From assembly GCA_028532985.1 (NCBI GenBank), contig JANCIK010000007.1, positions 2,170,001 through 2,234,000 of the forward strand: a DNA stretch of 64,000 nt, written 5' to 3'. The DNA comes from Stropharia rugosoannulata. Taxonomy: Eukaryota; Basidiomycota; Agaricomycetes; Agaricales; Strophariaceae. Positions 4,985 to 59,145 of this stretch are shown here, one piece after another; the stretch's first letter is position 1, and every line of letters starts with the position of its first letter. The notes beneath the pieces are model-generated. The model was not told the DNA's origin. It did no database searches and worked only from the letters and a program-made list of their open reading frames with translations. Both the position numbers and the translations under genes were made by a program.

Positions 4985-5975
4985 ATGTTTCGGCAGCAAA
5001 ACTACTCCCGACATCGCTCTTCCCAGCGTGCTGCCAACACCGGCCTAGGTGTTCATGTTGTCAGTCCCCAGAAACGTCCGCCTAAGAGAAAAACAGCACA
5101 GCCGGCCATCAATTTCCTTGACTCGCAGACGAAACGACGTAAACTTGAAGACGACCTCGATAATCTTCTGTCCTCCAATACCCCTTCGACTACTCTGGGC
5201 AACCCATTATGCGTCGAAAGTACTGCCCCCCTGGTTGACGACAGTGCGAACGCGGCGTCTAGCATAACCGACTCTGAAAGCAACTGGGTAGATGTGGTTG
5301 AGGATGAGGCTGTTCCACCACAACCACCAAACGTTCCATTTACAAGACGTACCACACCCAACGAAGCCGCGCTGAAACTATATTCAAAGTGGAATGCCTT
5401 GCTTCCAACTCTTATTGAACCGCTATTGAACTATGTCACCCAATCAATCGCTAAACCAATTAGACCCGTCGGCGACAACCTACGAGGAGTCTGCGCAGGC
5501 TGTACTGGTTATATCTTTGAGAAGAAGAGGATTCTATGTCTATATTTTGACCGTACGTTTGCCCTTGTATCTAGCTCATGCTCCTTTTCACTAGTCATAG
5601 ATTTCAAGTCCGTAAATATCGAATATTGCTCTTGTAAACATATTGGCGATACACTCGTACGCAACGGCTGATTCCCGACGGCACCCAGCCAGGTCCGCAT
5701 GGCCATTTCCATCGATTTTCTTGACTTCTATGGGGCTATTTTTGAACGCTCTTGTGATGCTGTAAACGCAATGGCAGCTGCCCTCAACACATTTTATATT
5801 CGACGAGGTTTTTATCTTTTGAATGCGAAGGTAAGACCGCAAACCCTCTCCAAGTAACTTATTTGCTTATAATCGTGACTGCAGAATGAACGTTATAGGG
5901 AACCCTTCCGTCGTGGCCTCGGCTATGCGGCTCAGTGGCTTGATAACTTGAAAGTCTTAGTAGAAATGCGCACGG
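4985..5975 (+). pseudogene. CxC1-type KDZ transposase, N-terminal half (rest at 59145-55594, minus)
   Basis: Starts at ATG 4985 (MFRQQNYSRHRSSQ) with a basic, low-complexity N-terminus (RPPKRKTAQ, TKRRKL). A CxC1 cysteine cluster follows: VCAGCTGY, then IEYCSC, FPTAPSQVRMAISIDFLDFY and FERSCDAVNAMAAAL, the block typical of CxC1 clusters attached to KDZ (Kyakuja-Dileera-Zisupton) transposases. Likely introns are about 5550-5603 and 5831-5884. An in-frame TGA at 5669-5671 interrupts the cluster (RNG-stop-FPTAP). The gene is then cut at 5975 by the LTR. Its last codons (LKVLVEMRT) continue in frame at 59145 on the other strand (ESLLEQADDYL). KDZ proteins are DDE-type cut-and-paste transposases. 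Confidence 0.85.
5972..5975 (+). repeat. Target-site duplication ACGG, left copy
   Basis: ACGG lies directly before the LTR start TGACAGGG. The reverse strand at 59145-59142 also reads ACGG directly after the end of the other LTR copy. The match, with KDZ frame continuity across it, marks the two LTR copies as the two ends of one insertion. Confidence 0.85.
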
Positions 5976-7192
5976 TGACAGGGCTGCTTTTTGGCTACGG
6001 GTGTAAACAGTCAGAAGGCCCGTTAGTGGGATAGCTGCGCGCGGGAAACACAGAGAGACTAGAGTTGAGCCTGCCTCGTAGTCTATAGCTATCAGCGCGC
6101 GAGCATCATGACTATAAGCGCCTGCGCGCTCCGTATCGCGAGAGGGATTGGTCAGCGAGCTGCACAGTCTAAAAAGTGCATAGTTTGACCATCCGTGCAA
6201 GCGATCAGGTGTGCGTAGAACGGTTAAGCACCGGCCAAGTGCAGTGTGAGTACAGCTGAGCGAGTACCAAGGGCGGTGTGAAGGGCTGTGCGTGCATCTC
6301 ATGTGCGCGCATCGCAAAGGCAGAATTTGCCTAAGTCCACACATCATGTGACCGTGGCGGCGCGCATCAAAAGACGCGCAAAAGCCCGAGGGAACGACCG
6401 ACATGCGCGCAGCGAGTGCCAAGGGATCAGGACACTCGAAGGGAAGCCCGGATGCGATGCGCGGACCTTTGGCCGCGCGTTGCTAGTATTTACTTTACCT
6501 TATTATTAGTACACATGCGCGCATTGCATATAAACCTGTATCCTTGTCTATAGTAATCCAAGCAATTGTCTACCCACTAGATCTGTGTGCTGGGTTCTGT
6601 CCCAGGCCGTCAGCGGGCTGTGTTTAGCTTTTGTTAGGGTTTTAACTGTGAAGTGTTTGTGAATCATAGGAGTTTTGGATAGCTTCTGACCACCGGGTCA
6701 TTTGGAGAGCTCAGTGAGGAGTCAGTACAACCGTGTATGGAAACTCGCACTGTAGTGTTTAGACTGTGAGACTGCACCGCCGGGTGAAAGACTTTGGAGA
6801 GTCTTGGATTATTGGACTTTGGAGAGTCTGCACATTGTACGAGGTCACCGGACCCGGAAGTGCGCGCAGCGAAGCCGTTCGCTAAAAACAACTTATTTCA
6901 TTTATCATTTTGCTTTGCGCACGCCACTAGCAACCGGGCTCTATCCGAGATTTACTAGAATTAAACCCCTCCTTACAAACGAACTTGCAGGCACTACTTG
7001 CTATTACAAAGACTAGAGGACACGAGGTGCGTGCATCGCACGCCCAGAACGGGAACCAGAGCAGAGCATAGATTATACTAGCCATTTAGTTGAGGGCGTT
7101 CGCTCGATCTAAGGGATAGGATCTCGCTCCGCTGGGTGTGTGTGTGTGTTGTGTTTCGCGATTTCGAGTCTAGCTACGCAGTAGACCTCACA
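5976..7192 (+). repeat. 5' LTR, 1217 bp
   Basis: Begins TGACAGGG and ends GACCTCACA (TG..CA). It has exactly the same length as the inverted copy at 59146-60362. I found three differences between the copies in the first 350 bp, all transitions (ACCCGTTAG/CCCATTAG, GTGCAAGCG/GTGCGAGCG, TGTGCGTGC/TGTGCATGC); the rest was compared only in blocks and matched. The LTR ends with a short GT run (about 7137-7149) before TTTCGCGATTTCGAG. Several TGCGCGCA palindromes are inside (6304, 6404, 6516, 6861). Confidence 0.92.
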
Positions 7193-7194
7193 TC

Positions 7195-7213
7195 TGGAGC
7201 CCACCGCGAGGGG
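7195..7213 (+). promoter_or_regulatory. tRNA primer-binding site of the outer element
   Basis: TGGAGCCCACCGCGAGGGG starts two bases after the LTR. TGG is the complement of the CCA end of a tRNA. The same 19 bases occur four bases after the nested element's 5' LTR at 9887. I did not identify the tRNA. Confidence 0.75.
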
Positions 7214-7271
7214 AAGGTTCAGAAATCTCACTTAGTGTTTCGGGAACTACGGCTTGCGCCTATTACAATAA

Positions 7272-9320
7272 ATTACAAAAATTTCAAATAAAACAGGGAC
7301 GAGTAATAAGCGAGGCAAATTTCCTGCGCCTTCATCGCTCGCCGAGCCAGAAGAAACCAGACCATCCTTTGGAACGGTGCCTTCACGCGAGAGAACCACG
7401 AGGAGCAAGAAAGACGCTGAGCTGGTAGAGCCGTTGGTAATTACACCGACGAGAGACAGAAAAGCAAAGAAAAGAGCGCGGGAGGAAGCGCAGTTGCAGA
7501 TTGAGACTCAGGGATTAGCGCAGCGCATTCCAGGTGCGCTCACCGAAAGCGACTCGGAATTAAGAGTAGGGACTAGTGGATTTTGGGGACCACCATCTGG
7601 CATTGAATCAGAAGGCCAATTAGTGGACGGTGATATTACCCTTGAAACCACACCATTTGGTACTTCTGATAGCCAAGCTACCCAAGACACCCCTCCTCCA
7701 TTCTCGGAAGTATTTGGGACTGCTAAGACATCCGCGCAGCGCACGGCGGAAAATAGCGAAAGTGAGGCAGAGCGCGTAGCGAGAGATATATTTGAAGGAG
7801 ACTTGTCAGATCTTTCAGAAAGCGAACCCCCACGAGAACCAGAAACTATGCCTAAGGATATGTCCATGCCAGTACGCGGTGCGCGCGGCGCGCCGAGCTT
7901 CGATCCTGCTGCAGAGCGCGATGAGCTGCCGCGGTACTTTGAGGACCTGGAGGATTGGTTTAAGCGCGCGGAGGTGACGGAGGACGATGAAAAGAGGGGA
8001 TATGTAATAAAGTATGTACCCATGCAGACGGCGGAGGAGTGGAAGAATTTACCAGGTTATGATACCAAGGGGTACGCGGAGCTCAAGAAAATGATTCTCA
8101 ACGAGTACCCGGAGGTGATCAGCATTCAGACAGGGTCCATCGCACGGCTCAAGAAGCTCTGCAAGGAGAATCAGCGCATCTCGGAGGAAGACCTCCAGGT
8201 GTTGCTGGACTTCAAGCGAGCATTCTTGGCCGAGGCAGCTAAGCTCACGAAGGCGCCTACCCTGCTCGCGAATCATACCTTGGTAACTTACTTCACCAAT
8301 AGTCTCACTGCGGGGTTCAGGGATCGATTGTTTAATAAACTGGACATTGATTATACGACGCGCGCATCGTTCGACAAGTTCTTGACTGAGCGCAATATAC
8401 AGTTCACCGCACCTACTGGGGTGACGGTAGAAGCGCGCACCGAGGACATGTACCCTCTCAAACAAGTAGCCGAGATGGCGGAACAAATGGCCCGCACCAA
8501 GAACCCAAGCACTACACTGAGCCTAGGGCGCGATAGCACTGATGGACTTATGCCGGTGCCCGCCATCAAGACTGAGGCTGCGGATGTTAGTTCGCTGCGC
8601 GGAGAGATTGAGGACCTGAAAGGGTTCGTCGCCTCCTTCAAGGATACCTTATCGTTAGTAGAGAAGACGGTGGCAAAGTCAAAGGAGTCGAGTAAGAAGG
8701 AATTAGAGGACATTATTCGCAATGTCATGGCTGCGCGCGCCGCACCGATGTCGGTGCCTGTACAACCAGTAGCCCCCATGATGCCCATGAGCGCACCAGG
8801 TTTCGGTGGACCGCCGCCTAGGCCTTTCCAATACCAACAATGCCCGGAGCCCCGTTGCTTCTACTGCAAGCAGACGGGACATGTGGTTGCTGAGTGCATC
8901 GTACGACAGCAAGACTTGTCAGCTGGAAGGATTGTCATCACAGAGGTGGGGTGCTTACAGCTACCCAATGGGTCATCAATACCTTGGGACCCTTCGCGCA
9001 CGATTAAAGAACGCGTCGATGAATGGCATAAGAAGAACGGACAGCCCGCGCAGCAAGCGTATATGGCACCCGTCCATCCCTCGTACATGGGTATACCTCC
9101 TAGCATGGTATACTTGCAGATGTACCAACCGGCCAGTTCCTTGGACGAGACCTATGAGGAGCAGATACGCGCACTTCAGCAAGAGCTGGAGAGTAAGAAG
9201 GCGTTCCTGAAGGAGCGCGCATCGGCGAAGACGCCTGAGGAAGTGATAGAGGAACAGCGCCAGTTAATAGCGACTATGAAAGCCGAACGCGACGCTGCGC
9301 TCAGTCAGGGTTTCGATTGA
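7272..9320 (+). CDS. gag: Gag of the outer LTR retrotransposon
   Basis: The frame is open from 7272 to TGA 9318-9320. The likely start is codon 7377 (GTG CCT TCA CGC, reading as M/V-P-S-R-E-R); no in-frame ATG occurs until 7849, so the original ATG may have become GTG or a non-AUG start is used. The N-terminal 150 residues are charged and low-complexity. A capsid-like block follows (YFEDLEDWFKRAE, then YVIKYVPMQTAEEW). A coiled-coil-prone segment (about residues 400-450) leads to a canonical CX2CX4HX4C zinc knuckle (CFYCKQTGHVVAEC, about residue 493) that binds the RNA genome. About 648 residues from 7377. The protease frame starts at ATG 9326, in the -1 frame relative to gag and only 5 nt after its stop. 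Confidence 0.85.
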   Translation: MTKISNKTGTSNKRGKFPAPSSLAEPEETRPSFGTVPSRERTTRSKKDAELVEPLVITPTRDRKAKKRAREEAQLQIETQGLAQRIPGALTESDSELRVGTSGFWGPPSGIESEGQLVDGDITLETTPFGTSDSQATQDTPPPFSEVFGTAKTSAQRTAENSESEAERVARDIFEGDLSDLSESEPPREPETMPKDMSMPVRGARGAPSFDPAAERDELPRYFEDLEDWFKRAEVTEDDEKRGYVIKYVPMQTAEEWKNLPGYDTKGYAELKKMILNEYPEVISIQTGSIARLKKLCKENQRISEEDLQVLLDFKRAFLAEAAKLTKAPTLLANHTLVTYFTNSLTAGFRDRLFNKLDIDYTTRASFDKFLTERNIQFTAPTGVTVEARTEDMYPLKQVAEMAEQMARTKNPSTTLSLGRDSTDGLMPVPAIKTEAADVSSLRGEIEDLKGFVASFKDTLSLVEKTVAKSKESSKKELEDIIRNVMAARAAPMSVPVQPVAPMMPMSAPGFGGPPPRPFQYQQCPEPRCFYCKQTGHVVAECIVRQQDLSAGRIVITEVGCLQLPNGSSIPWDPSRTIKERVDEWHKKNGQPAQQAYMAPVHPSYMGIPPSMVYLQMYQPASSLDETYEEQIRALQQELESKKAFLKERASAKTPEEVIEEQRQLIATMKAERDAALSQGFD

Positions 9321-9325
9321 GTCTG

Positions 9326-12300
9326 ATGAAGGGAAATGCGGGCAGAGTTATGCGTAGTGGCTCTGATAAACCCAAGAACCCGGAGGGCGCAATGATGAGC
9401 CGCGCCCATCTACGGCCACGGAATCCGTCACGCACAAGTCCGTGTTCCCACGTCGCACAGCCACCGTGCCACAATCCGACTTGCATCGCACTCGGAACAA
9501 CTATGCTCCGCCTGCGTTTCGAGCATTTTCCATTACATTACTCATTAATTCTAGGTCTTTCATTGCCCCTTTACTTACTCAGCACCTACATTCTAGGATT
9601 ACACTTATTCCGTAGGCTATGCTTTGATTTTACATATATAAAGCATGTACTTTATGTAGAAGAAAAAGAAGATTTCGTTTCCCCTCGTCTTAGCATCCTA
9701 GTTTTCGTCTCAGTTCTCGTTCTCGTCGTATACCTCGTCCAGGAGTGGTTCGAAGCTGACGCTGCAGCTTACACTCCCTCGTTCTCACGTCATTTCGTCT
9801 TGTTTGTGTTGTTTTGGGTTGGTTAGAAGCCGTGTGAAACCACCTCGCACCTGTACGCGCTCATAGAGAGCTTCAGCGTATCATTTTGGAGCCCACCGCG
9901 AGGGGTGAGTTTCCTATGCACTGGACTTCAGCTAATCCACCTTTATTCGCGCATTTTCGACATTAATTCACAATTAATTCCTCCAACACTTCGTCGTCCC
10001 TCTACACTCGTTTCTCAATATGTTCCATCCTATGCCATCCTTTGGAGACCCCAGCGCACCGACTTTCGACCCAGAGAAGCCCCGTGGGCTTAAACATTAT
10101 TTTTACGACCTTCAGTACCTATTCAGCACATCCGGCATCATTACCACCTCCAAGCAGAAGTGTTACGCCATACGCTACGTAGATAACGACACTGCTGACC
10201 TTTGGGAGTCGCTTCCTCAATTTTTGGACAATTTCTCGACCTTTGACAATTTTAAGGACGCCGTCTTCGAGCTTTACCCATCCGCTAACGACGATTATTG
10301 GTACACCCTCGCCAACCTCGAATTATTGATTGAAAATCGTTTGCACATCGGCATGAATACTCTAGAAGACCTCTCGGATTACCATACACATTTTATTACG
10401 ACTTCGCAGTTCCTTATTTCGAAACAACGACTATCAGATCTCGAGCAGAAGCGCATGTACCCTCGTGCTTTTCCCCCATCGCTTTGGACAAAAATTTCGA
10501 CTCGTTTAGCACTCAAGTTCCCAGACCATTATCCAGACGATCCCCACGCTATCCCAGACGTCTACGCCGCCGCCATTTTTATTTTGCGCGCCTCGCACTC
10601 CGTTTACTCGTACACCTCGTCGCCTATACTGTCTCAGCCGTCGCCCTCGAGTACAAACGTTAATCTCGATGATTTTCGCATTATTTTCGCAGCATTTACG
10701 AAGTCGATCATCCAGGAAATACAAAGTACATTTCAGCCGTCGTCTACATCATTAATTTGCCCCAGCAAGAAGCCTCGCGTTTTCAAGTGCAAGTTCTGCG
10801 GAGAAAATCATTTTATTCGACATTGCACCCTCGTTGATGACTACATGCATTCAGGAAAAGTTATACGCAATTCAGATAGCAAAGTAGTGCTCCCCACCGG
10901 CGCTTACATTCCAGAAGATATTCCAGGCCGATTTTTGAAGGAAAAATTCGATGAATGGTATAGAAGACATCCAGGACAGTCAAGAACACCGTATCAGTCG
11001 CCGCCAACCGTTTTACAAAGTATTTTCGCGCCCGCAGTCGCTACCTCGTCACCCAATCTATCAGACACGCAGTACATCGATGATATTGACTCCAGGATTG
11101 CAGAAATCGAACAGGAAATTGCCAGACTCCGTCACCAGGTCCCAGACGTCGCCTCAAACGTTTCAGTAATGCCCAGTGTTGCTCAGTCAAATTCAAAGAA
11201 ATATTACAGCGTCTTCGCGTCTCAATTCGTTGCTACACATTCTAGGACACCAACATATCCATCCAGCATCGACTTACCACCTCAGAAGTGCATCTCGTTC
11301 ATGTATCCTTCGCCTGCACCCTCTACTCTGTCTCCTGCACCCCAGACATCACACATAGATCGCCTTTCGTCGCCACCATCGTCTATTACGCGTAGCAGTG
11401 ACATATTAAAGTCAAACACATTTATAGTCAAGTTACAGCCCCCCAAGTCGTCGCCCCTGTTTCCTAGACCATCTTTTACACCCAGAACGTGCCGCACCTC
11501 GGATAAAGAATTATTCTCTCGTTTTTGCACATCACCACCGTCTCTAGTTGGTTTTCATGCACTCCGCCAATCTATCGCTCGTATATTTCACCCCAGTATC
11601 GCCTATAGTGATTATTTAATCTCCAGACGTCGCCGCCCTCGTCCTAGGCGCCCCGGATAATTTATCTTGCCCCCCCACACATGCCAGCTTCGTTTACATG
11701 TCCCAGGATCGCTCAACATCTCGTTTTTATGTTCAACCTTATGTTTCACCCTCAGAAGTTTATATTTAAGTAGGGAGGACCCCCTGCCCTCGCTTTATGC
11801 CGTTATGCCGCTACGTTTTTCGTTGCTCTTATGCTTTATGCTTTATTCAGATATGTTATAGATATATGCTAATTATTTCGTTTATATGGTAGATTTTATG
11901 AATCTTTCTTGGTATAAAAGTTTATGCGCCAGTATGTCGTTTATATTATGCCTTTATGCACGTTTATCTTCCGTTACATTTGCTTTGCATTGTTTTTCTT
12001 TATCTTTTATATTTGATTGTTTGTTTTGTTTTTGGTATTGTTATATTGTGTAGCTTTCGCATTTTTCTGCTTATTTGCTTCGGCTTTTTCTTGTTTTGTT
12101 TTATTTCTTTCATTTACGGCTGACTGAGGACAGTCAGTATTTCAGTAGGGAGGAGATGATGAGCCGCGCCCATCTACGGCCACGGAATCCGTCACGCACA
12201 AGTCCGTGTTCCCACGTCGCACAGCCACCGTGCCACAATCCGACTTGCATCGCACTCGGAACAACTATGCTCCGCCTGCATTTCGAGCATTTTCCATTAC

Positions 12301-13853
12301 ATTACTCATTAATTCTAGGTCTTTCATTGCCCCTTTACTTACTCAGCACCTACATTCTAGGATTACACTTATTCCGTAGGCTATGCTTTGATTTTACATA
12401 TATAAAGCATGTACTTTATGTAGAAGAAAAAGAAGATTTCGTTTCCCCTCGTCTTAGCATCCTAGTTTTCGTCTCAGTTCTCGTTCTCGTCGTATACCTC
12501 GTCCAGGAGTGGTTCGAAGCTGACGCTGCAGCTTACACTCCCTCGTTCTCACGTCATTTCGTCTTGTTTGTGTTGTTTTGGGTTGGTTAGAAGCCGTGTG
12601 AAACCACCTCGCACCTGTACGCGCTCATAGAGAGCTTCAGCGTATCAGCAAACAAGAAGTTACCAATCAAGAATATACCCAGAGCATCAGTTGAGGACGC
12701 GAGTGATGAGGAGGAAGATGAGTTGCGAGAAGTAGTGGAGGAGCAAGGTGCGCGCAGCGCACCCGTAAAGAAGAAAGTAGTGTTTGAGGTTCCTGCAAAG
12801 GCTGGGCCTAGTGTACGACCAGCAGCAGTGCCATATGTAATGGTACCTCCGCTGCGCGTACCAGAGAAAGTAAAACCTAAGGTTAGGGAAGAGCCCATAC
12901 CTGTAGTAGAGAAGAGGAAGCCGGCCTATAAGCTGCGCGCACCTATCGAAGATGAGGCGCAGGCTGACGCAGTCCTCAAGCACTTAGAAAATCAGAAAAT
13001 TGAGATCACGCAGGGCCAGTTGTTAGGCATCTCGACTGCAGGCTTTAGAAGAAAATTCGTTGAGCGCATAGTACCAAGAAAGGTACCATTGGATTTGAAT
13101 ACGATGCGCGTATTACAACTAGACTACAATGAAGAAGAGCGTGAAGTAGATGAGGCTATCGCGCGGTTAGCAGAGGAAGAAGAGGAAGAGGAGTTCATGC
13201 AGATGGATGAACTACCAGTGGCCACTTTCCTTACTTGCTCAGATGAGCGCAGCGGGCTGCAACCGGGAACCATCATCATGGAAGACCCGTACGAACAGTA
13301 CGTCTCGACTCTGCAGCCAGGCGAAAAGCCTAAGGGACTTATTGTGGCGCGCGAATCGCACCATCTGAAGGCGGTGTTTCCTCTCATCAACGGCAAGGGA
13401 CACGCAGAGACGTTGCTCGACAGTGGGTCGCAGATTGTGTCAATGGCACAGGACACCGCTGAGCGCTTAGGACTTAGTTGGGACCCGGATTTCACTATAC
13501 GGATGCAGAGCGCGAATAAGCAGGTGGAATCCACCAAGGGCTTAGCGCACAACGTACCGTTTGTGTTTAACGGGCTGACAGTGTACTTACAAGTACATGT
13601 CATTAGCGCGGCGGCTTATGAGGTACTCTTGGGCCGGCCGTTCGAGATCCTCACGGAGAGCAATGTGAAGACGCGCGGCGATGGAACGGTTGAGCTTACG
13701 CTCACCGATCCCAACACACAGCGCAAGCTGGTAGTACCCACTTATAACCGAGGGTGCGGTCCCAAGATTGTGCAGCGCGAACCTAAGTTGCAGGACCCTG
13801 GCACAACGGAAAACCCTAACGCAGATCAGGATTTTCAATCCTCGATGAATTGA
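9326..13853 (+). CDS. Protease frame of the outer element, split by a nested LTR element (9393-12651)
   Basis: Begins at ATG 9326 just after the gag stop. The nested element enters after 9392. Removing 9393-12651 (element plus one GCAA) makes the frame run through into NKKLPIKNIPRAS and on to TGA 13851-13853, so the insertion is the only break. The distal part holds an acidic linker (EEEEEEEF) and a retropepsin-like domain: AETLLDSGSQIVSMA carries the catalytic D-S-G, and YEVLLGRPF matches the flap-partner motif. A retropepsin would cleave the Gag/Pol polyproteins. The stop overlaps the next start as TGATG (13851-13855), which suggests termination-reinitiation. As it stands, 12652-13853 lacks its own natural start. 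Confidence 0.8.
9393..9883 (+). repeat. 5' LTR of the nested element, 491 bp
   Basis: Starts TGATGAGCCGCG, ends GCGTATCA. Matches 12157-12647 in full apart from one G/A difference. Contains TTACATATATAAAGCATG at about 9630, a likely TATA box for the element's own transcript. Confidence 0.92.
9887..9905 (+). promoter_or_regulatory. tRNA primer-binding site of the nested element
   Basis: TGGAGCCCACCGCGAGGGG, identical over 19 bases to the PBS of the outer element at 7195. Confidence 0.75.
10020..11660 (+). CDS. gag: Gag of the nested element, 546 aa
   Basis: ATG 10020 to TAA 11660, uninterrupted. It is homologous to the outer Gag: YFYDLQYLFSTSG and CYAIRYVDNDTADLW align with YFEDLEDWFKRAE and GYVIKYVPMQTAEEW, and the segment after the knuckle (LPTGAYIPEDIP, FDEWYRRHPGQ) aligns with LPNGSSIPWDPS, VDEWHKKNGQ. 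The zinc knuckle at about residues 257-269 is CKFCGENHFIRHC, CX2CX3HX4C, one residue shorter than canonical before the histidine. The C-terminal 180 residues are Ser/Pro-rich. The codons are distinctly unlike the outer gag (more TCG/CTC, no TGCGCGCA motif), so the two have long been separate lineages. Intact. Confidence 0.85.
   Translation: MFHPMPSFGDPSAPTFDPEKPRGLKHYFYDLQYLFSTSGIITTSKQKCYAIRYVDNDTADLWESLPQFLDNFSTFDNFKDAVFELYPSANDDYWYTLANLELLIENRLHIGMNTLEDLSDYHTHFITTSQFLISKQRLSDLEQKRMYPRAFPPSLWTKISTRLALKFPDHYPDDPHAIPDVYAAAIFILRASHSVYSYTSSPILSQPSPSSTNVNLDDFRIIFAAFTKSIIQEIQSTFQPSSTSLICPSKKPRVFKCKFCGENHFIRHCTLVDDYMHSGKVIRNSDSKVVLPTGAYIPEDIPGRFLKEKFDEWYRRHPGQSRTPYQSPPTVLQSIFAPAVATSSPNLSDTQYIDDIDSRIAEIEQEIARLRHQVPDVASNVSVMPSVAQSNSKKYYSVFASQFVATHSRTPTYPSSIDLPPQKCISFMYPSPAPSTLSPAPQTSHIDRLSSPPSSITRSSDILKSNTFIVKLQPPKSSPLFPRPSFTPRTCRTSDKELFSRFCTSPPSLVGFHALRQSIARIFHPSIAYSDYLISRRRRPRPRRPG
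11661..12120 (+). other. Non-coding tail of the nested element
   Basis: T-rich sequence on the plus strand (many TTTATG and TTTTAT words) with no open frame of note. It lies between gag and the PPT region, where pol would be in an autonomous element. Confidence 0.6.
12121..12156 (+). promoter_or_regulatory. Hairpin and polypurine tract of the nested element
   Basis: TGACTGAGGACAGTCA (12121-12136) folds as a 6-bp stem with AGGA loop. It is followed by GTAGGGAGGAGA directly before the 3' LTR TGATGAG. The same hairpin precedes the PPT of the outer element's 3' LTR (60398-60383 on minus). Confidence 0.7.
12157..12647 (+). repeat. 3' LTR of the nested element, 491 bp
   Basis: Same ends and length as 9393-9883. 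Followed by GCAA (12648-12651), the second target-site copy. Confidence 0.92.
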
Positions 13854-16130
13854 TGCGTCAAGGAGAGGTCGCGTTGATGTTTGACAGGGATGATCGCACG
13901 TGGAAAATAGAGATAGCGGGGTACACGCTACCAAAGAATAAGAAGCGGTTTGGGAGCGCTGAGCTCAGGGATGTATACATGGCTCAAGCAGTACATGAAG
14001 CTAAGATGGAGGACAATGAAAAAGAAAGAATATACAAATATTTTCAGCAGCGCGAATGGCGCAAGGAAGAAGTAGTCAAAGGGGAGCCTAGAGGGCAGTT
14101 CCGCGCATCGCACGAGGAACAGGTCCCTAGTAAGAAACAAGGAGTAACGCGTAAGCGCTTGACTGGCAAGAATGCCACAACCGTTACGGTGCTCGCAGGA
14201 AAGAAGTATAAGCCAGTGGCTGAGAAAGTCAGGCCCGTTTATCAAGATTTACCAGAGAAGTTTAGAATAGTGAGGGAGATAAAAGGAGACCCACTGAAGG
14301 ACATGCCGCAATTGTCACCACATCCGCCAGACTTCGTACCTACAGGTCGGTACACCGCTGAGCGCATGGAAGGGATTGACAAGGCGCATGAAGGGGATTT
14401 CCTGTGGTCTGAGGAGCGCAAGTTGGTGCATCAAGTTTTCATGCAGCAGAACGAGGCGTTCGCGTGGGATGACACAGAGAAGGGTAGATTCCGTACGGAC
14501 TTCTTCCCTCCAGTAGACATTCCCACTGTGGAGCACACGCCTTGGGTATTAAAGAACATTCCGATACCACCTGGGATGTATGAGCGCGTATGTGAATTCA
14601 TCGCCACCAAGATTCGCGCAGGCACGTATGAGCCCTCGAGCTCGTCGTACCGGTCGCGCTGGTTTACAGTGACTAAGAAAGACGGGGTCTCGTTCAGGAT
14701 TGTGCACAGTCTTGAGCCGTTAAATGCGGTAACCATTGCACATTCAGGACTACCTCCAGCAGCGGAGAGTCTAGCGGAACACTTTGCGGGGCGCGCATGT
14801 GGCGGCATCCTGGACTTGTATGTTGGGTACGATGAGCGGCTGTTAGCTGAGTCCTCTAGAGACCTGACTACATTCCAAACGCCGTTCGGTGCGCTGCGCT
14901 TAGTAACCCTACCTATGGAATGGACAAACTCCGTGCCCATCTTTCATGAGGATGTCGCATATATATTACGCGATGAAATACCTGAAGTTACCGAGCCCTA
15001 TATAGACGATGTACCTATTAGGGGACCTAAAACGCGCTACGAGTTAGAAGGAGGAGGATATGAGACGATACCAGAGAATAAGGGAATAAGGAGATTCGTA
15101 TGGGAACACATGTTGAATGTCAACAGAATTGTGCAGCGCATGAAGTACTCGGGAGGAACATTTAGTGGAAAGAAGTCCATACTGTGCGCGGCTGAGATAG
15201 TAGTGGTGGGGCACTTGTGCACATACGAAGGACGAAAGCCAGCACCTGATAAAGTGCATGCGATCCTCAATTGGGGCCCATGCAAGAACATCAGTGATGT
15301 GCGTGCATTCATGGGTACAATGGGTCTGCTACGTATTTACATCTCAGACTATGCGAAGCGCGCAGAACACATACAGCGGCTATTGCGTGGGAAAGAGCCC
15401 TTTGAGTGGGGGCCCGCTCAGCAAGCTAGCATGGACTCGCTGAAAGACGGTGCGCGCAACGCACATTGCGTGAAACCACTGGACTACACATTGCCAGGGC
15501 CGATTACTTTGGCTGTAGACACATCATGGCGAGCAGTAGGATTCTATATTTACCAGCAGGACCCACAAGATTCGAAGAAGAGGGTATATGCGCGCTTCGG
15601 ATCAATACTGTTAACGGAATGCGAGCAGCGCTTCTCACAGCCCAAACGGGAGTTGTATGGACTCTTACGTGCGCTACAAGCCTGTTATTACTGGCTCATC
15701 GGTGCGCGCAAGCTGGTGGTGGAAACGGATGCCAAATACTTGAAGGGCATGTTGGATAACCCGGGCATGGGCCCTAATGCGACTATTAATCGCTGGATAG
15801 ATAAAATACTTATGTATCACTTCCAGTTGAAACATGTTGCGGGCAAAACCTTTGGTGCGGATGGTTTATCGCGTAGGGAAGGGCAACCTGGAGATGAGGC
15901 ATACGCGCACTCCGAAGAAGATGATGATCAGGAAGTGGGACCGCTCGAATATGAGAAAGTCTATGAAGATGACCCAGATCCCCTGGACTTTGAGGAATTC
16001 AAGGAACAGATCGATGATCGCAGAGGATATCTGTATACAGGACTCCTCAACGAGTTGTTTGAAGGTCCCACGGCGCAAGTTACCAGAAGCGCGCTCTATA
16101 GGCTGTTTCCAGCAGGAGCTCGAGCGCGCA
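13853..16130 (+). CDS. pol: Reverse transcriptase and RNase H of the outer element
   Basis: The start ATG 13853 overlaps the protease stop (TGATG). Reverse transcriptase: TVTKKDGVSFRIVHS (about residue 270), LDLYVGYDE with the first catalytic Asp, FQTPFGALRLVTLPMEW, and the active-site YIDDV box (about residue 382). The connection region DVRAFMGTMGLLRIYI follows. RNase H: LAVDTSWRAVG (Asp), QPKRELYGLLRAL (Glu) and VVETDAKYLKGML (Asp), then LKHVAGKTFGADGLSR. The frame stays open to 16273, but integrase lies in another frame and homology-like sequence leaves this frame at about 16080-16130. All catalytic residues I looked for are present. Confidence 0.85.
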
Positions 16131-49723: not shown

Positions 49724-50487
49724 ATGGCATCCTCGTCTGATGCTTCACTCACTGCTCTCAGCAAATTTTGCGGAAATCCTCAATGCCATTCGCTCTTGGA
49801 AAAAATCCGTGTTTGTGCGGTATGTCGCTCTCGCTCTTACTGTGTAAGTCATAACTTCATACAATTTCGGCGACAACTTGCTTACTCCGTCGCAAATTTT
49901 AGTCTAAATTGTGTCAGGCAGCGGACTGGATTGTCCACCGCGAGTTTTGCTCTCCAGTTGACGGCCTGAGTTCTAGTGCCACTCTCATCAGAGCCTACGC
50001 GAGGAAACATCAGAATATGTTCATCACTTTAGCGCTTGAACATATGCAGTTCGCGTCCAAATTCTCCCCACTTCGAGGGGACGACCGCCTCGCCTTTCTT
50101 CCCCTTTCTCAGGCACAATATTTACACATCAAGCTGCACCGTCGCACGGACATTACTGGACGCGTGCGTGTACCGCGTTACAATAGGATTGCATTTGCAT
50201 CTGCTGAGCTCCGAAATGCAAGCCTTCTTCCGACTCATGCAGCAATTCGCCGCCGTCTTGTAGAGAGATTCCCTGCTGTCATCCTCGGATACAGCATTGT
50301 CGATCGATCCCTTTCTCTCGATTCGCCGCAGATGATCACTACCTACACTCATCCATTTCGTTGGCCTGAGACCTCTATTTTCGAGGGGCGCATAGGACTC
50401 GGCATCCCCAAAATTGTTAGCATCATCTCTTTAATGGAATGGTACTTTATGCACGAGACCGGTAATTTACAGGATCAAATACAATAA
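49724..50487 (+). CDS. MYND-type zinc finger protein
   Basis: Exons 49724-49843 and 49903-50487 join in frame (705 nt, 234 aa); the 59-nt intron has GTAAGT and TTTTAG. The N-terminus carries a complete MYND finger: FCGNPQC, VCAVC, SYC/SKLC (spanning the splice), then HREFC, giving the family's Cys7-His spacing with the final HX3C. MYND fingers bind proline-rich peptides in partner proteins. The rest (LIRAYARKHQNMFITLALE ... WPETSIFEGRIGLGIPKIV) matches no domain I know. The next in-frame upstream codons have no ATG, so 49724 is the start. It appears intact, one of the few such genes here. Confidence 0.85.
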
Positions 50488-50659
50488 ATGTTGTCATAAT
50501 TACATTTGTATGTTCAAGGTACATAGCTCGCATATGTAGGATGAATCATGATTGTTTCTGTATCATAATTCATCTACCAGAGATCATTGAAATATTTAAC
50601 TTGACATAACTTCCCGTAATCTTGTACTGTAAGTCTGTACACCACAACTGCTGCTATAA

Positions 50660-52061
50660 AATTGCATGTGAGCTCGGACCGACAACTGCGGCATTGGAAA
50701 CTGCCGTCACTTTACCGCTCCCCGTCAGTACGTCAGAGTTGCCAGGGGCTCGCGAATGTCTTTACTGCCCCACAGTCGGTGCCACCGCCCTTGCGAATCT
50801 TTGTAGGATTTACAAAGGGAAGGCATTTGAACTGCAGTTTCAAAGCCGTCGTTATTACATAAATGGTATTTCAAAGGGTGAGTGCGTTCTACCTCTTTTA
50901 CATATCGCTAACAGGATGAGCTCGAGCCCGGCTGCCCAGTGCACTTGCCACTTGACCGCTGGAGATGTTATCGTCTATTTTTGTCACTATGGTAAGCGAT
51001 ATATCATTGAACATTGCTTTATGTCGACGTTGATTAGTAATTGATGATCTTGCTTACTTGGTAGGATGCCACCTTTCCACCTCAAACAATGGGTCCGACG
51101 AAGTGATTTCTGTTGCTAGCAAGTCGCATTATCCTTCTCCAGTGTGTATACTGTGCTAACCTTGCTTTACCAGGACCTGGTTGTCTCACTCATGACGTCC
51201 ATGGCCCCGGAGCACGAGGCTGCGTCCTCCACCATCAAGCCCCCAGCCCATCCGACACCATTGTCAGCAGCATGGGTTCGACGCTGCGCAACATCAATGG
51301 ACAATCGAGTCCGCCTCGACCTCGTAATCCGCCTTCCAGGGCGCGGACCCGTGTTAAAAAGAGAATCAGAGTGGTCATTGAAGTCTCCGACTTGTCAGAA
51401 TCAGGTAAGCTTCCATCACTCTTTGCAATAGCAAGAACTGGTACTACGCCGCCACCCAGGTCAATCCTCAGGCCAAAAAAGTCCTTTACCTCCCACTACT
51501 GCACCAACGTTGCAATCCGCAGGCTCCGTCTCAAACCCCATCTCGTCCACTACTGTGCCGACGGAGCTGCGATCGCAAGGGCCCGTCCCCAGCCCCATCC
51601 CGTCCCCTCGTGCCCCACTGTTGCCGAGCTCGCGTTCACTCGAAGGGACAGCAGAGTGGACCATCCCAGGTATCGTTGAGCCACCTTCAACACCAGTCCC
51701 AACAGTCATTGGAATACCTATCGATCTGGAGGATGTTGATGACTGGGTAAACGAACCTGAGATCCCCGAGGATATTGATTATGAACAGGACGCTGCCACA
51801 GAAGTTGATCTCGAAGCCTTCACTGCGCGCAATGCGGCTGACAACCTCTCCTTCGAGGGCGCTAACGACGTGGATGACGCGGACGACAACTATAGCACAA
51901 CGGCCGAGCGTGCGGACGATTCGGATATTGATGATCTGGTGCCGCCGCAATTCGACTACTCACTGAGCTACCAGCCCATCGAAGACCACGAGTATTGGTC
52001 TCTGGACATGCAGAGAAATGCCTTAGGTGGGGAGACCGAAGAAGAATACAACGAACACTGA
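50660..52061 (+). CDS. Hypothetical multi-exon gene with acidic C-terminus
   Basis: An early block, TSELPGARECLYCP ... LCRIYKGKAFELQFQSRRYY, ends INGISK at a GTGAGT donor near 50878. It continues in phase as DELEPGCPVHLPLDRWRCYR after an acceptor near 50916, then FLSL at a GTAAGC donor near 50992. The following exon reaches a TAG at 51115-51117 unless another junction is used. Later blocks are RTRVKKRIRVVIEVSDLSES (51345-51405) and a Pro/Ser then Asp/Glu-rich tail (IDLEDVDDWVNEPEIPEDID, TEEEYNEH, stop 52061). Whether these are one intact gene or two broken ones is unclear. Not recognised. Confidence 0.4.
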
Positions 52062-52065
52062 TCAT

Positions 52066-53100
52066 TCACCGATTTCTCCAAAGATGTTGTCCGGGGTCAT
52101 TTATTCCTGTACGGTAGCTAGCAGTAGCTTTTCTTTTGAAAAATTTCTTGAATAATGTCTTCATATGATTGACTTGACTTGTGAGCGACCCAAATCCGAC
52201 AAACGTCTCGTTATATACCTGAAGTATCTTGCACATTGAAGATCTCCAACACGAGATTGACCCAACCCCCCGACCCCTACCTCTGACGAGAGCCTCATGC
52301 GTTTGTTGAGCATGTCGCGATTGCGAAAATACGTTAGGGAGATTCAAATATTTACGACTCGAACATTTACGCGTCATGTTTTTCTGACGGCCATCACCAA
52401 GGCTACGGAAATTTCTACCTGATTCAAATTACAATTGTCCACATTGCCTTTTGAACAATTTGGTGTGTCTAAGAGTTGTTTGGTTTCAAAACAGTCCCTG
52501 GCTAAGAAACGACCACTGTTTAATGAGTGAGAATGAAGTCTCCATGAGTAAATCTCAATGTTTTGATAGTAATTTGGTCGGTACAATCATTTTGGTCCAT
52601 GTCTAGTATTTGAATGTAGTTTTTGTACATATACTTTACTTTATTTAATGAAGATTAGACATATCAGAAGCATGAGGGTAAGTATATATACACTTATATA
52701 TGTTTTATAGTCTATGAGAATTAAAGGTAACACCAAACCAATTACAACAGTATGCAAAGGTGTAGCTCTATCGTGAATCATACGCAAACACCTACCGTTC
52801 TGTAGTTTTTGTCTTACTTTTACTCAAAATTTATCAGACCACTGAGAAACCTATATTGTTCGAAAGATACAGCCCTCTGTTATTTTATTACGTAGCTATT
52901 ACTCTACAAAGTTATGTGGATGAGTTATAATGTAATTTTGAGTGTTCTGCATAATCTATTATTTGCATAGGTGCCTGATTCCTAATAAGGAATGATGGTT
53001 GATCGCGATCTTCTGTCGCTATGCACGATCACGCTATGTCGTCGTTGTGTCCAATTTGTGTCATCTCTATGTTCAAGCTATGGCCATTCGACTATAACAT
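52066..53100. other. AT-rich intergenic, no feature seen
   Basis: No supportable exon; many TATATA words near 52685-52710. I could not pair terminal repeats. Confidence 0.4.
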
Positions 53101-53103
53101 TGA

Positions 53104-53779
53104 TCAAGACTGATACATGAACTGTTTCTGTGAGTACATTTCTTTTACTTCCTTGAAATCTACCATAGCATAACAAAATATCTCTTCAACCCATTTTGCC
53201 AACGTAGACACTTCCTGAACAACCTGAGCCGCCCGGGCTTCTTCCTTCGCCATTCCTACCAGTGAGTATATTTCATTATGATAGCGATGGATTGATTTCT
53301 GAAGCTTCCCAATCCTCACGACCTGCTCATGAATAGGATCTTTGTCCCGACTCTCCAGGAAGGCGATACATATTTTCTCCGCATAAACGAAGCGCGATGG
53401 ACCGATCATCCGCTGTAGACGGCGGTACACTCGTTCGACACTGTCCATCCATGTCTGGAGTGGGGGAGGCGCGGAAGGTGCGCTATTCTCCCCTTCCCGT
53501 GATTTCTGCTGCCTACATTGCTGAATATTAGTACAGCGACTACATATGCTAAAAGCGTGGCATACTTATGATCTTGGTGCGCCTTTCTATATTCCTTTCG
53601 GCACTTCTTGTTTATTATCTTCTTATTCCTGTGCAAACAGAACAAAGTAAGGCATGTACAGCTCAATCATATGTCACTGTATTTGAATACTGAACATACA
53701 TCTCATAATGCTTTTTGCTTTTCAGTCTGTTAGCTTGTTTCTTCTTCTCATCGGTAAGATACATGCGAGGGCGTCCCAT
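53104..53779 (-). CDS. Small basic protein with MGRPR start, 183 aa
   Basis: Exons 53779-53700, 53638-53576 and 53512-53104 join to 552 nt in frame, with GT..AG borders. Start MGRPRMYLTDEKKKQANRLK, then HYEMNKKIINKKCRKEYRKA: a highly basic helix with bZIP-basic-region flavour (N-R-x-x-S/K-K) but no clear leucine zipper. Then a helical C-terminal half (VERVYRRLQRMIGPSRFVYA, AKWVEEIFCYAMVDFKEVKE). Likely nuclear and nucleic-acid binding by composition; this is inference. MGRPR-type basic proteins are common in mushrooms, function unknown. Intact. Confidence 0.65.
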
Positions 53780-54078
53780 CCTGATGGTAGTTCGGAAGAG
53801 AACAGAAGAGCGGCTCTGTCCCTCTGTCAGGCATCAAAAGTCGGATTCGCCTTTAGCAACACTACCTTTCTGTCAATTCGTAGTGAATCACGAACCATTT
53901 TAGGTTATATTGGTTGGATGGGTACGGTATTAATCCCCCTTCAAATCGCTTATGAATTCCCCAGCATCCATCCATCGCGATTCGCCTGCATCTCTGCTTG
54001 TTATACTCGCAAATATTCTAATGGCCTACTCGGTGCATACTTTATTCGTTTGTTGTTTTATGCGCTAATTCTTTCAGT

Positions 54079-54610
54079 AGGATACTCCAGAACACCTTGC
54101 TGAACAGTTGTCTTACATTGAAAACCTCGCACCTTACTATCGCTTGGCACGCGAAGAGAACGAGGAGAGCACCTTCATCGAGCGACTCTTTGATTCATGG
54201 TTTGTCCGCTGGCCCTTCAAGCTTCGACAATATAAAAAAATCAAGTACTTGAATGCGGCATTGAGAGATAAGCGAGAGGTATGCCTTATCTTTGTGACGG
54301 AGTGTTGACGAGCTCATCAGCTCTTCATATCTCTCAGTGGATTATGCATGAACTACAATTGAAGGCATCGAGCGCTCCCTATGGTCCTATGATGTGGACT
54401 TGGCCCACATACATGACCATTTGCGAGCGTCGACAAGGATTTCAGGCAAAGGTGCGCCGCATTTGAATTCTGTGATCATTGTTGCTGATTCTGTTGAAGA
54501 GAAAGTTTTGGACCGAGGTCGACTTTCGTAATGGACCGCGTCCACGTCCTCGCCCTCGAACTCTTTTCCAATGGGTCAACATCCAAGATACCCAGTCCAC
54601 ATCCCCGTGA
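54079..54610 (+). CDS. Hypothetical gene fragment
   Basis: Blocks: TPEHLAEQLSYIENLAPYYR, EESTFIERLFDSWFVRWPFK (like LSIFDEWFTQFP of the 27293 gene), ALRDKRE to a donor near 54280; then SQWIMHELQLKASSAPYGPM to a donor near 54451; then KFWTEVDFRNGPRPRPRPRT and LFQWVNIQDTQSTSP, stop 54608-54610. The start is not found; coding may begin upstream at 53890-54080. Much shorter than the 27293 relative and lacks its middle, so probably truncated. Confidence 0.4.
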
Positions 54611-54764
54611 CCTCACTAGATAACTCTGTAGTATCCTTAATTGTTCTTGCAAACTCGTAGCTACATAAATGTATCTGTTCTAATATCGATTCTATGTTGC
54701 TGCGCCGCCTTCTCAACATCGAGTGACTTGCATTGAGGCATAATCATGTATGATATATATATTG

Positions 54765-55457
54765 CTAAACATCTACATGGCGGTAGCGTATTTTGCGTAC
54801 ACGACGCCTAAGTGCAGGGTCAGATGGTATGAGCTCTGCCTCGGGGAACATATATTCGAATGGGACCGATATTTGCATACCCTCTTCTACAAGCGCCAAC
54901 TCCTGCGGCTCCATCAAAAAAGAGATCAGTTCACCGTTGTCATCATCGACACGTGTATTCTCATTGGGTTCGTCATTTTGCTCATCGCGTTTCTGCGCAT
55001 CCTCGATGATTGTTTTGATATCTAGCATGCGGCGGCAGTCAAAGCCTGGGGCCAATTTCTGTCCAGATAATTAGGGACAGTTAAACGAGAGTGGACATGG
55101 GTCTTACTCTATACGCTCGATCGTATTCAATCTGGAGAAACCGATCCCATTGTGCAATCCCTATTAAAGGGCTTGCCACGGCACCAATCGCAGCAGCCAT
55201 GACATCAGCTCGAATCTGTTTTGGTCTATTGAGTGCTGCCCTGGCCCTGCTCAGCCTAGCCCTCAAAGAAAGGGACTCACCTTCGCACTTGCATTATCGT
55301 CGTTGGGCCAACGGTCTTCATACAGCTTGACAACGAGGAGGAAGAACTCCTCTAGGCGATCTTCCAGGTTGGCCTGCTGAAAAAAACCAGCAAGATATGT
55401 TGCAAATTTCCACCGTTGGTACTCATTTCCGAGTGGTTTGACATCACACTGAGACAT
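54765..55457 (-). CDS. Hypothetical protein, 192 aa, next to the KDZ-ULP1 gene
   Basis: Exons 55457-55281, 55215-55108 and 55058-54765 total 579 nt and close in frame. ATG 55457 opens MSQCDVKPLGNEYQRWKFAT, then LEEFFLLVVKLYEDRWPNDD; exon 2 IGAVASPLIGIAQWDRFLQI; exon 3 LAPGFDCRRMLDIKTIIEDA, an acidic stretch, then a basic end (ALRRRVRKIRYRHVDV). It lies 137 bp downstream of the KDZ-ULP1 stop on the same strand, so it may be a companion gene of that element. Intact; family unknown. Confidence 0.6.
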
Positions 55458-55593
55458 GGCTTATGGTGTGGGATTGCGTAGAAGGAGTGGGAAGAGTGGA
55501 AAGAGTGGAGCGACCTTGAATTTCAATTGTGAAGTGCGAATCCCACGAGGCGGAAGAAAGCTGAAACTGAACGTATTGGATATGAAGACGTAA

Positions 55594-58500
55594 TTACATG
55601 GAAGTCGAAACCATGTACATTAGGTTCCCCAACGCGAGTCTCCAAGAAGGCATGTAAGTCTCGTCTATTGTTTCCCCAATAGTAGCATGCCCTCGAAGGA
55701 CAGCCGCGATCCATGCAAGGACCCATAAACCGCAATCGTAACCATTTGTCTGAAGTGGTTTGATCTGATTAAAAAATGTTCTATAAATAAACATGACACG
55801 ATAGCTGTAGGCAAGACATACAGATGCTGGTTTTGCGGCCCAACCAGTGGTTACTGTTGTCATCACATGGCCTGATCGATTTGCGAGTTCGACTAGCCGC
55901 TGGAGAAAGATGGATATGTTCTAGAGTAACTTAGCCACATACAATCATAAAAGACCTAATAGTTCATACCTTCACGTCTTGATTCCATGCTGACCGCCGC
56001 ATACCAAGGCTATCATACAGGAGTACCAACCTCTGCTCAAGGTAAAGAACAGCCAGAACCCAGTGCCGTTCGGACTGCCTATGAATCGGGATTATCCAGA
56101 TTTTCTTCCGCCAGTACTCTCGGCGGTATGTACTCCTCCAAAGTTCTGCGTCAGGTGCCTTGTAGTTGATGCGAACGAGGTCGTATGTCGAGAAGATAAC
56201 ACATTGGCTGGCGGTCTCTAGGTGCTGCGGGTCTTGGCCAATGATTGCTTGCAGGAGGGCAGACAAACCGTTTATACAGATGTCTGTAAGGAGGGCATCT
56301 CGAACAATGACCGTCTGCAGCTCCTTGTCGCTTAGATCAAACGTTCGAATGGGTGAGGATAGATGACTGGGTGTGCGATCAGGAAAAAGAGCGGTGCATC
56401 GCATGATAAATTGAATTATCTTGTCGTCTTTCGATAGGTGATTAACCTAAACAACTTAAGCAGGAAAAGATATAAATTTGAATAAAAACTCACATCTTCT
56501 GCCCATCGGATGCTAATTGCATCATCACTATGCTCCCAAGCCGAGGTATCAGAATTCTCATCCTTGCCGATATTCTCCATCTGAGAAAGTTCAGATAAAA
56601 TTATGGCTTCAGCGGCCTCCTCGCTTGTTGGCAGGTCATGTAGATCAGAATCCACCACGCTGACTTGGATGGCCGCCTTGTCTTCGTCCGAATCCGCATC
56701 GTCCGAATCGTAGCCGTCTTGGTCATCATTTTGGATAGAACGTAACATATGACATGGGTTTAAATGTCCAGTTAACTGTGATACCGTTAGCAGAGCCTCG
56801 GTTGCATGGGTTTTAAAATGACTAGTCAATACGGAATGACTGCTCCATCTTGACTGGAGATGGAGGAGCTGATCGCGATACTGTTGAAGTTGAATGGTGT
56901 ACATATTACCTGTTCATATCAATTTTAAGGTGGTACAATAGCGATGAAGACGAGATCACTTACACGAAGGTACTCTGAGAACCAACTCAACTGCGCCCAA
57001 CTCTCGCCGGAACCAAGCACTGAGATTTGCGGCCTCTGATTCCAGCCGGCTCTCCTCTTCTGCACAGCGATCCAACTTGATGATAGCCCGGATACCCGAA
57101 CGAACATTAGGGTCAACTAGCCATGGCTGGGGAGCAGTGTTAGACGCAGAGATCCACACATCCTCCATGAGATCGGAATGGTCACTGAGTTCGGCTAGCT
57201 TGGTGGGTAGAGGAAGTGGTAGCGGTATATTCCAAGTAGGATCATTCAGGCTGTGAAGTTTGGCACAATAGGAATTGAACTTTCTAACGGCTGTAACAAG
57301 CGCTGGTGCCCGACGAGAGATTGCTTTCCGTGTTTGCTGGTGTAGTTTGGTTCCTAGTGATATGTGAGAAATTGCACGTACATAAATGTATAGTTAACTT
57401 ACCTAGACTTAGACTTCGACCACCGACGGCTTGATCAAGTCTGTCCCACTCAAAAAAACTTTCAATGGCTCGCCTTCGAATGTTGATCTTGAGATCACGA
57501 GCCATGAGAAGGGTACGAACGAAATCTAAACTCGCTCCCTTCAGGTCCGGGTAGGTATCGCACATGTTGAGAGACACATAAAGGGATTCGACTTTGGTCG
57601 CAAACATCTGGTGCATGTCGTATAGCTTAGAGAGAATTTCTGCGGATTCCTTGGGGGCCGCCGACATCGCTAGCATGGATTTTGCAGTGTCAATGGCCTT
57701 TTCAACGTTTTCAAGATCGGCCTGGAGACTTAGAATGGTATCCAGTTCCTTTTTTAGTCTGGCCGGTGCATCTAGCATAGAAAATGAGCATTTCTAACTC
57801 CCCCTTGCATAAAAACAAGTGTACTTACGCGCTCGGATGGACAATTGTGCCGCCTTTTGAAGCTCCCATTGAGCCCGTAGGACGCTTTCATCGACATCAC
57901 ATTGTTCAAGGACTTCTCTGGCTTTCTTACTCTGGTCCTTGATACCCAACTTCTGGCGACGTTTGAGCCAATCACCGAGGTCAGCCCTAAGGTCAATGGC
58001 TATTGCAGACAGCTGCCGATCCGTAAGCCAGATCCGACGGGCGCGCTAAGTTTTAAGGAGTATTCGATCAAACAAAGAATTGGAGAGCTGACAAGTCTAC
58101 ACACCGATGATGTTCTCACAATAGGGATAAGTTTTCGCAGTCGGGACCATGTTTGTTCAACACCCTCCCCGTCAGTCAACCCTAAGCCTTTACAGAGCCG
58201 AGGATTATATATCAACTGGCATGACCATTGATGTCCGTATGCATGCATAGCTGTTGTTACGAACTGGACGCGAGAATGTATGCGAGATGGTAGTATATCG
58301 TACTTGATTTGAATAGTTCATATTAGATAACCTTTGCATGTAGAATAAATGACTTACCATCTGAATACTACGGTCCAAAACACACCCAATATCATACAAT
58401 ACAGTCGCTGTAGCATGCGATGGGATTGATTCGAAAAACCACAAAATAAGAGCGATTGCGTATTTCTGCTGCTCTCCGGGGGTATCAATGTTCGCGAAGA

Positions 58501-59145
58501 ACAGAGGTATGTCATGACGGCAGACAAGAGACATCCAACCCATATCATCGTATCGGCCCTGACTGGATAAGGTCTTCTTTTTATCTCCATCGGCGGCATC
58601 ATGAGAACGTTCACATTCATCGACTGCTGAATCGGGAACCTTGGGAGCGCGTTTCTTCGAAGGCGACTTTCTTGCATTTACTATTATGTCACCAACAGCA
58701 TCGACAAATTCTTTGGGAATTACATGTTTCGGATCATGGAATGCGATACTTTCACCTCCTGACGTAAGGTGACGGTGGTGAAAGTTTCCATCGGTGGCGA
58801 TTTGAAAATCTCCACCACTAATAATCAATATAAATTCGTCAATATTGTATCTGTTGTATAAAAATTAACAAAATCATACTCTTCCAAAGGCCGGCCGTAG
58901 GTCGCACCGCCAAAGCAAGCAGGACAAAGTTGTCGGAGAGATCTTGCGCATTCAGCGCGCAAATCAGGTTCTTTATCTGGACTCATAGTTTCGTTGAGAA
59001 TTGCTACAGGGGATGGCTTTGGCATAGCTGGGGTAGCAGGAGACAGAATTGGGTCAAATGGGATTGGAGGGCCTGCAGCAGTAGTAGCATCAGTTGCGCG
59101 GTGGGTCTGCAGATAATCATCAGCCTGCTCCAACAACGATTCCGT
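55594..59145 (-). pseudogene. KDZ transposase catalytic part fused to a ULP1-like protease (C-terminal half of the gene at 4985)
   Basis: Begins mid-codon after the LTR (ESLLEQADDYLQTHRATD). Cys motif LCPACFGGATYG; DDE-type core QIATDGNFHHRHLT, RHDIPLFFANIDTPGEQQKY and VLYDIGCVLDRSIQ; then HAYGHQWSCQLIYNPR, GLTDGEGVEQTWSRLRKL; a long helical region (57950-56930); an acidic linker (YDSDDADSDEDKAA); and a C48/ULP1-like peptidase: His in RHWVLAVL, Asp in LLYDSLGM, Gln and Cys in LQTNGYDCGLWVLAWI. Stop at 55594. Introns are many and short (for example near 58860-58810 and 55822-55766). ULP1-type proteases cut SUMO-like tags; fusion to a transposase suggests it modifies SUMOylated host or transposase proteins, which is inference. 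Cut off from its promoter and CxC1 half. Confidence 0.85.
59142..59145 (-). repeat. Target-site duplication ACGG, right copy (inverted)
   Basis: CCGT on plus, ACGG on minus, directly after the LTR end CCTCACA. Same four bases as 5972-5975. Confidence 0.85.

Follow-up and report, generated by a model that had tools for sequence, protein, structure and literature searches.

The closest described relatives of the elements considered here differ in their TSDs and termini. As described in PMC12730594, Zisupton elements have 8-bp TSDs, Kyakuja elements combine 7-bp TSDs and CA..TG ends with an absence of TIRs, and PlavakaB elements have CATCA..TGATG ends and TSDs of 2-3 bp. The elements KDZ1-3 of Cryptococcus neoformans are given as 9-11 kb in length with TSDs of 4-8 bp (PMC12810828), and at the Cryptococcus mating-type locus, where KDZ insertions are also reported, inversions have been attributed to identical copies of pheromone genes (PMC12510652). 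By title and the start of the abstract, none of the literature retrieved on inversion by non-allelic recombination with TSDs in fungi concerns KDZ elements, which is not a claim of absence.

The window analysed here, a stretch of 64,000 nucleotides from Stropharia rugosoannulata (contig JANCIK010000007.1, positions 2,170,001 to 2,234,000), contains a transposon, KDZ-1, interrupted by a Ty3-type LTR retroelement, which in turn contains a second KDZ-type transposon, X (Table 1). KDZ-1 resembles Cryptococcus neoformans KDZ1-KDZ3, as described, in having a KDZ domain, a CxC1-type cluster (weak here), a length of ~10 kb or more and an 8-bp TSD; both KDZ-1 and X share with them the presence of more than one near-identical copy per element. 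KDZ-1 differs from them in an Ulp1-type protease domain and in ~11 kb of further sequence (PMC12810828). The termini of KDZ-1, CACCTCAGGC...GCCAGTGGTG, mirror each other in 8 of their last 10 bases, a comparison confined to these ends, and those of X show no clear mirroring, whereas the Cryptococcus elements are described with TIRs of 139-241 bp (PMC12810828). The segment between X and its inverted copy X' is comparable to the Anopheles inversion 2Rj, which is tied to segmental duplications at its breakpoints (PMC1952172); unlike there, the arms are copies of one DNA transposon of recent age whose TSDs have been exchanged, and one of these arms sits within a retroelement that is itself inside another transposon. 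The kinds of element and rearrangement are already known, and it is the layered TSD record that is unusually clean: each of four insertions, nested or adjacent, is marked by a TSD, from which the earlier order can be recovered base by base.

Table 1. Coordinates of features in and immediately beyond the window
Feature	Position	Strand	Remarks
KDZ-1 left 8-bp TSD	4615..4622	+	GAAGCCAT, identical to reverse complement of 43242-43249
KDZ-1 left part	4623..5975	+	terminus CACCTCAGGC; 5972-5975 = ACGG, TSD of LTR element
5' LTR	5976..7192	+	1217 bp, TG...CA
LTR element, internal part 1	7193..20811	+	ends in GATATCG (20805-20811), left TSD copy of X
Small nested LTR element	9393..12647		LTRs ~491 bp, 99.8% alike; TSD GCAA read by eye
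X	20812..30527		KDZ-type transposon, 9.7 kb; left arm of inverted repeat; termini CACCTAATG...GGCTC
Flipped segment	30528..64000, on to 64351 (351 bp beyond window)		33,824 bp in total
HET-domain open frame (stop to stop)	37315..38244	+	PF06985, E 1.6e-11; within flipped segment
KDZ-1 right 8-bp TSD	43242..43249	-	GAAGCCAT read on minus strand
KDZ-1 right part	43250..59145	-	terminus GCCAGTGGTG; 59142-59145 = ACGG
AT-rich insert in KDZ-1	45128..46180		1053 bp, CATCAGG...CCTGATG ends
3' LTR	59146..60362	-	1217 bp
LTR element, internal part 2	60363..64000 in window	-	ends outside window at 64351 with GATATCG, right TSD copy of X
X'	64352-74070, just past window end		inverted copy of X

KDZ-1 and the retroelement within it

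A second copy of KDZ-1 (G000:C4:690229-706419, minus strand) is uninterrupted at the site of the LTR element, and both window halves match it at ~99%. In the 20 kb of C4 compared, it is collinear with window positions 43250-45127, 46180-59145 and 5975-4622, amounting to ~16 kb in three pieces (12,977 bp at 98.7%, 1,878 at 99.1% and 1,354 at 99.5%), and the collinearity stops at identical transposon bases in both loci, CACCTCAGGC and GCCAGTGGTG. The C4 copy is bounded on both sides by an 8-bp TSD of its own, TAGAATCT, as against GAAGCCAT on both sides of the window copy. Given that the two window halves have GAAGCCAT in common at their outer ends, and that the C4 copy is flanked by a different octamer, the 16.2-kb unit is a transposon inserted twice, with both window halves stemming from one of these insertions. 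The agreement (8 + 4 TSD bases in addition to the ~16 kb of collinearity with C4) exceeds what chance would produce. The C4 copy is the uninterrupted homologue that the first-pass annotation had advised searching for, and it bears out the proposal of one KDZ-ULP1 gene split by an LTR insertion; the coordinates given there take in the gene alone, the whole transposon being larger and comprising 4623-5975 (+) and 59145 down to 43250 (-). Further relatives of KDZ-1, on C5 and at C7:3.24 Mb, are only 67-74% alike.

The KDZ domain (PF18758) has a Pfam match in frame 58208-58864 of the right part (E 9.9e-21), and the C4 copy has two frames that match it (E 9.9e-21 and 2.5e-19). A C4 frame also matches Ulp1 (Peptidase_C48, PF02902), at a place corresponding to window ~56.0-56.4 kb when the position is converted from C4, and the C4 frame corresponding to the left part of KDZ-1 has a weak match to CxC1, below the cut-off; these matches support the name KDZ-ULP1. 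In its 8-bp length, the TSD of KDZ-1 conforms to the Zisupton/Dileera type as described in PMC12730594. Past the transposase gene (window 43250-54000) lie the ~11 kb of further sequence, in which open frames of 389 and 312 aa travel with the transposon; neither of these has a Pfam match. The AT-rich insert is missing from the C4 copy, which has a single AA at its place, and is accompanied in the window by a 2-bp AA duplication (or a 3-bp GAA, depending on end placement). Its termini and duplication fit those given for PlavakaB (PMC12730594), so that it may be PlavakaB-like; on account of its 1-kb size it is taken as probably non-autonomous.

The two LTRs of the retroelement, described in the first-pass annotation as of equal length and with ACGG at the outer edge of each, differ at 4 of 1217 bases; ACGG stands before the left LTR (5972-5975, +) and after the right LTR on the minus strand (59142-59145). 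Between the counterparts of the two window halves the C4 copy has a single ACGG, the halves being contiguous with a 4-base overlap. The 400 + 400 bp flanking the LTR element match this copy in one ungapped 800-bp alignment at 99.0%, and the C4 copy's own frame across the site reads ...VEMRTESLLEQADD..., in line with the uninterrupted frame that had been predicted from joining the flanks with a single ACGG.

Ty3-type LTR retrotransposons are recognized by the order of their protease, RT/RNase H and integrase domains, LTRs of the form TG..CA and a short TSD. The element in question, with ends TGACAGG...CTCACA and TSD ACGG, agrees with this type in domain order, in TG..CA and in ACGG: Pfam matches in internal part 1 follow the order PF13975 (protease), PF17917/PF17919 (RT RNase H-like) and PF17921 (integrase zinc-binding). 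The RT domain itself has no Pfam match in the window frame. Internal part 1 is collinear with a related element on C1 at ~95%, and matches one on C8 at 98.7% over its initial 1500 bp and at 98.9% across the X site; the first 500 bp of internal part 2 continue part 1 gaplessly in the C8 element.

The notion of a chimeric retroelement was considered because similarity to the C1 element is ~95% in part 1 but just 70-87% in the pieces of part 2. It was dropped, since the C8 element runs without a gap through the X site at 98.9% and, in the sampled stretches, is 98-99% like both parts. Within part 2, the C8 element has ~6 kb of extra sequence, and in the final 1.5 kb preceding its 3' LTR the best piece is 93.2% alike over 615 bp. 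A probe of part 2 (60363-64351) returned matches of 68-99%, and 10 loci are 94.9-98.7% alike over the initial 1.5 kb of part 1; the 3' internal part of the element seems to be more variable than the start of part 1. The small LTR element nested in the retroelement is missing from the C1 element at the corresponding place, and its 560-aa open frame has no Pfam match. An Rfam scan of the window gave no match. Across the assembly, DUF6534 has 64 matches and Fve has 4, as would fit an Agaricomycete.

The inverted pair X and X' and their exchanged TSDs

Self-comparison, with 20 kb beyond the window end added (84 kb examined in all), identified a 9.7-kb inverted repeat (20811-30527 against 74071-64352) that is 99.77% identical. 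The 20.8-kb junction is the left end of its first arm, X, inserted in the retroelement. A further copy, on C12, has ACGCAGT on both sides and calibrates both the ends of X and its 7-bp TSD. The Pfam scan of X covered two of its frames; KDZ-matching frames lie at 22897-23348 on the minus strand (E 1e-28). X has no strong TIR, the only such signal being a weak 62-bp subterminal match (E 0.046). It is like the Laccaria Kyakuja elements, as described, in its KDZ domain, 7-bp TSD, CA start and lack of TIRs, but ends in GGCTC where these end in TG (PMC12730594); because its termini, CACC...GGCTC, depart from 5'-CA..TG-3', X is filed as KDZ-type only.

Over their 9.7 kb, X and X' are separated by 9 substitutions and 9 indel events; four of the latter are, in our reading, one-base changes in homopolymer runs, so that part of the difference may be sequencing error. 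A 4-kb probe from X (21000-25000) gave eight listed matches, namely X, X', the C12 copy, a C8 copy in two pieces, two 70% relatives and one short match; among these, only X, X', the C12 copy and the split C8 copy are 99-100% alike. The C8 copy (G000:C8:773627-813561) is split by an insert of ~40 kb, which has CATCG...CTGATG ends and a 2-bp AA duplication, the ends alone having been read. This insert resembles a putative giant element of the Plavaka type, or one with further nested elements.

As assembled, the two loci read GATATCG-X-CTAGCTG and CTAGCTG-X'-GATATCG, and neither copy has a TSD. The intervening segment starts with CTAGCTG (30528-30534), whose partner lies at 74071-74077, on the outer side of X'. 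Turning the spacer round gives X a GATATCG on either side and X' a CTAGCTG on either side, a 7/7 TSD in each case; the chance of two such 7-base matches, assuming equal base frequencies, is ~4e-9 (4^-14). Un-flipping the 33,824 bp restores four TSD pairs, those of KDZ-1, the LTR element, X and X'.

Related sequences lacking the insertions favor the same order. The un-flipped join at X aligns with the C8 retroelement in one ungapped 1000-bp alignment at 98.9%, as against only 501 bp for the as-assembled join. The C1 element has the same single GATATCG, with greater divergence past it; the un-flipped join matches this element across the junction (bases 1-611 of 1000 at 89.9%, and 635-999 at 77.7%), versus 502 columns for the as-assembled one. 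At X', the un-flipped join aligns with a paralogous stretch at C7:2.4585 Mb (86.8% over 1034 columns, in a gapped alignment with a 37-bp gap near the site), and the as-assembled join does so over 484 columns. The sequence shows the un-flipped order to be ancestral. The paralogues around the segment are mixed in orientation, with un-flipping making one pair direct and others inverted, and were not used as evidence.

Origin of the present order

The insertions and TSDs behind the present order can be read from the letters themselves, and the following succession would account for them. The 16-kb KDZ-1 would have inserted first, generating GAAGCCAT, followed by the Ty3-type retroelement in the KDZ-1 transposase gene (TSD ACGG), and then by X, of 9.7 kb, in the retroelement (TSD GATATCG). 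X' would have inserted ~34 kb away in the opposite orientation (TSD CTAGCTG), the place of this step among the others not being fixed. Homologous recombination between X and X' would finally have flipped the 33.8 kb between them, swapping the right-hand flanks and carrying off the right half of KDZ-1 together with the retroelement's 3' end and 3' LTR. We infer that this flip is a cellular event, not a product of assembly, and that it was brought about by homologous recombination. Near-identical inverted repeats lie at both ends and the TSDs are exchanged; a swap of flanks that leaves the element ends whole is what ectopic recombination would be expected to produce. A real and recent inversion of this kind appears to be the probable explanation. 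If real, it would be younger than an already young insertion, given that X sits in a retroelement whose LTRs have so few differences.

The history proposed in the first-pass annotation stands as regards a single KDZ copy, a single LTR insertion and a single later change of orientation. The placement of a breakpoint in the retroelement itself does not survive, as the 20.8-kb zone is the edge of X; nor does an inversion of more than 38 kb, the flipped unit being 33,824 bp plus some part of the 9.7-kb arms. A plain breakpoint inside the retroelement was rejected because the junction is an X end and the retroelement resumes beyond the spacer, with 7 bp duplicated and none lost.

The main competitor of a real inversion is an assembly artefact, in which the chromosome retains the ancestral order and the spacer was joined the wrong way between the arms; a misjoin of this sort, named as a potential refutation in the first-pass annotation, gains plausibility from the inverted repeat and is possible, though we consider it unlikely. 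It draws on the same TSD and empty-site evidence, which favors the un-flipped order under both explanations, and a 9.7-kb, 99.8% inverted repeat is a classic spot for an orientation mistake by an assembler. The homopolymer indels are such as long-read errors would give, and there is no N gap within the 84 kb examined. Against it, the assembly comprises 20 contigs for 48 Mb and passes through other long near-identical repeats, such as the two 16-kb copies of KDZ-1 (98.7-99.5%), the reads probably being longer than 9.7 kb to judge from these resolved repeats; inverted repeats of such a kind also recombine in living genomes. The resolution of the other repeats leads us to lean towards a real inversion, without constituting proof. 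Relative to the C12 copy, X has 4 private substitutions at 21080-21401 and X' has 5 at 27735-28259, in opposite parts of the element, a layout that fits a possible exchange between ~25.3 and 27.5 kb; these private substitutions fall in about four clusters, two of the nine indels are opposed to the exchange pattern, and a misjoin would yield the same pattern. The case offers an exact distinction by PCR between an assembly flip and an inversion made by recombination. It also suggests that looking for swapped TSDs at pairs of inverted transposons could be a simple check for flips in fungal assemblies.

A special case of the real inversion, overlapping it in probability, is that both orientations coexist in different nuclei, strains or cells and that the assembly shows one of them. 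Near-identical arms would permit such recurrent exchange, as well as gene conversion. By the probes used, the assembly shows no second copy of the junctions and no second contig in the other orientation: a 3-kb probe from the spacer edge (30528-33527) has itself as its one full-length match, and the 99-100% matches of the X probe are confined to X, X', the C12 copy and the split C8 copy, an appearance that a monokaryon or a collapsed assembly would equally give. We regard this coexistence as doubtful. HET genes are self/non-self recognition genes, and a polymorphism of orientation between nuclei or strains that acts as a living switch, with a 33.8-kb HET-bearing segment flipping via KDZ arms, is a slender prospect.

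Alternative (reversed-ends) transposition using the ends of X and X' is highly improbable. A suitable substrate is present, since two copies of a single DNA transposon lie close together in inverted orientation, and in maize, inversions attributed to alternative transposition likewise have DNA transposons at their ends; unlike these, the footprint here is a pure exchange of flanks with no new transposition event (PMC8225341). Both copies of X keep both ends, the exchange of the 7-bp flanks is exact and has left neither a new TSD nor a footprint, and homologous exchange accounts for this without remainder. Two independent LTR insertions in separate KDZ copies, each lacking its other half, have a negligible probability and were rejected: the second intact KDZ locus that the first-pass annotation had named as a potential refutation is indeed present on C4, but its TSDs are TAGAATCT rather than the GAAGCCAT common to the outer ends of the window halves, and the TSDs of the LTR element match.

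Most of the 57 matches of the spacer-edge probe lie on C7 at ~2.06-2.62 Mb, and the spacer edge looks like part of a possible local cluster of duplicated sequence, not far from the HET frame.
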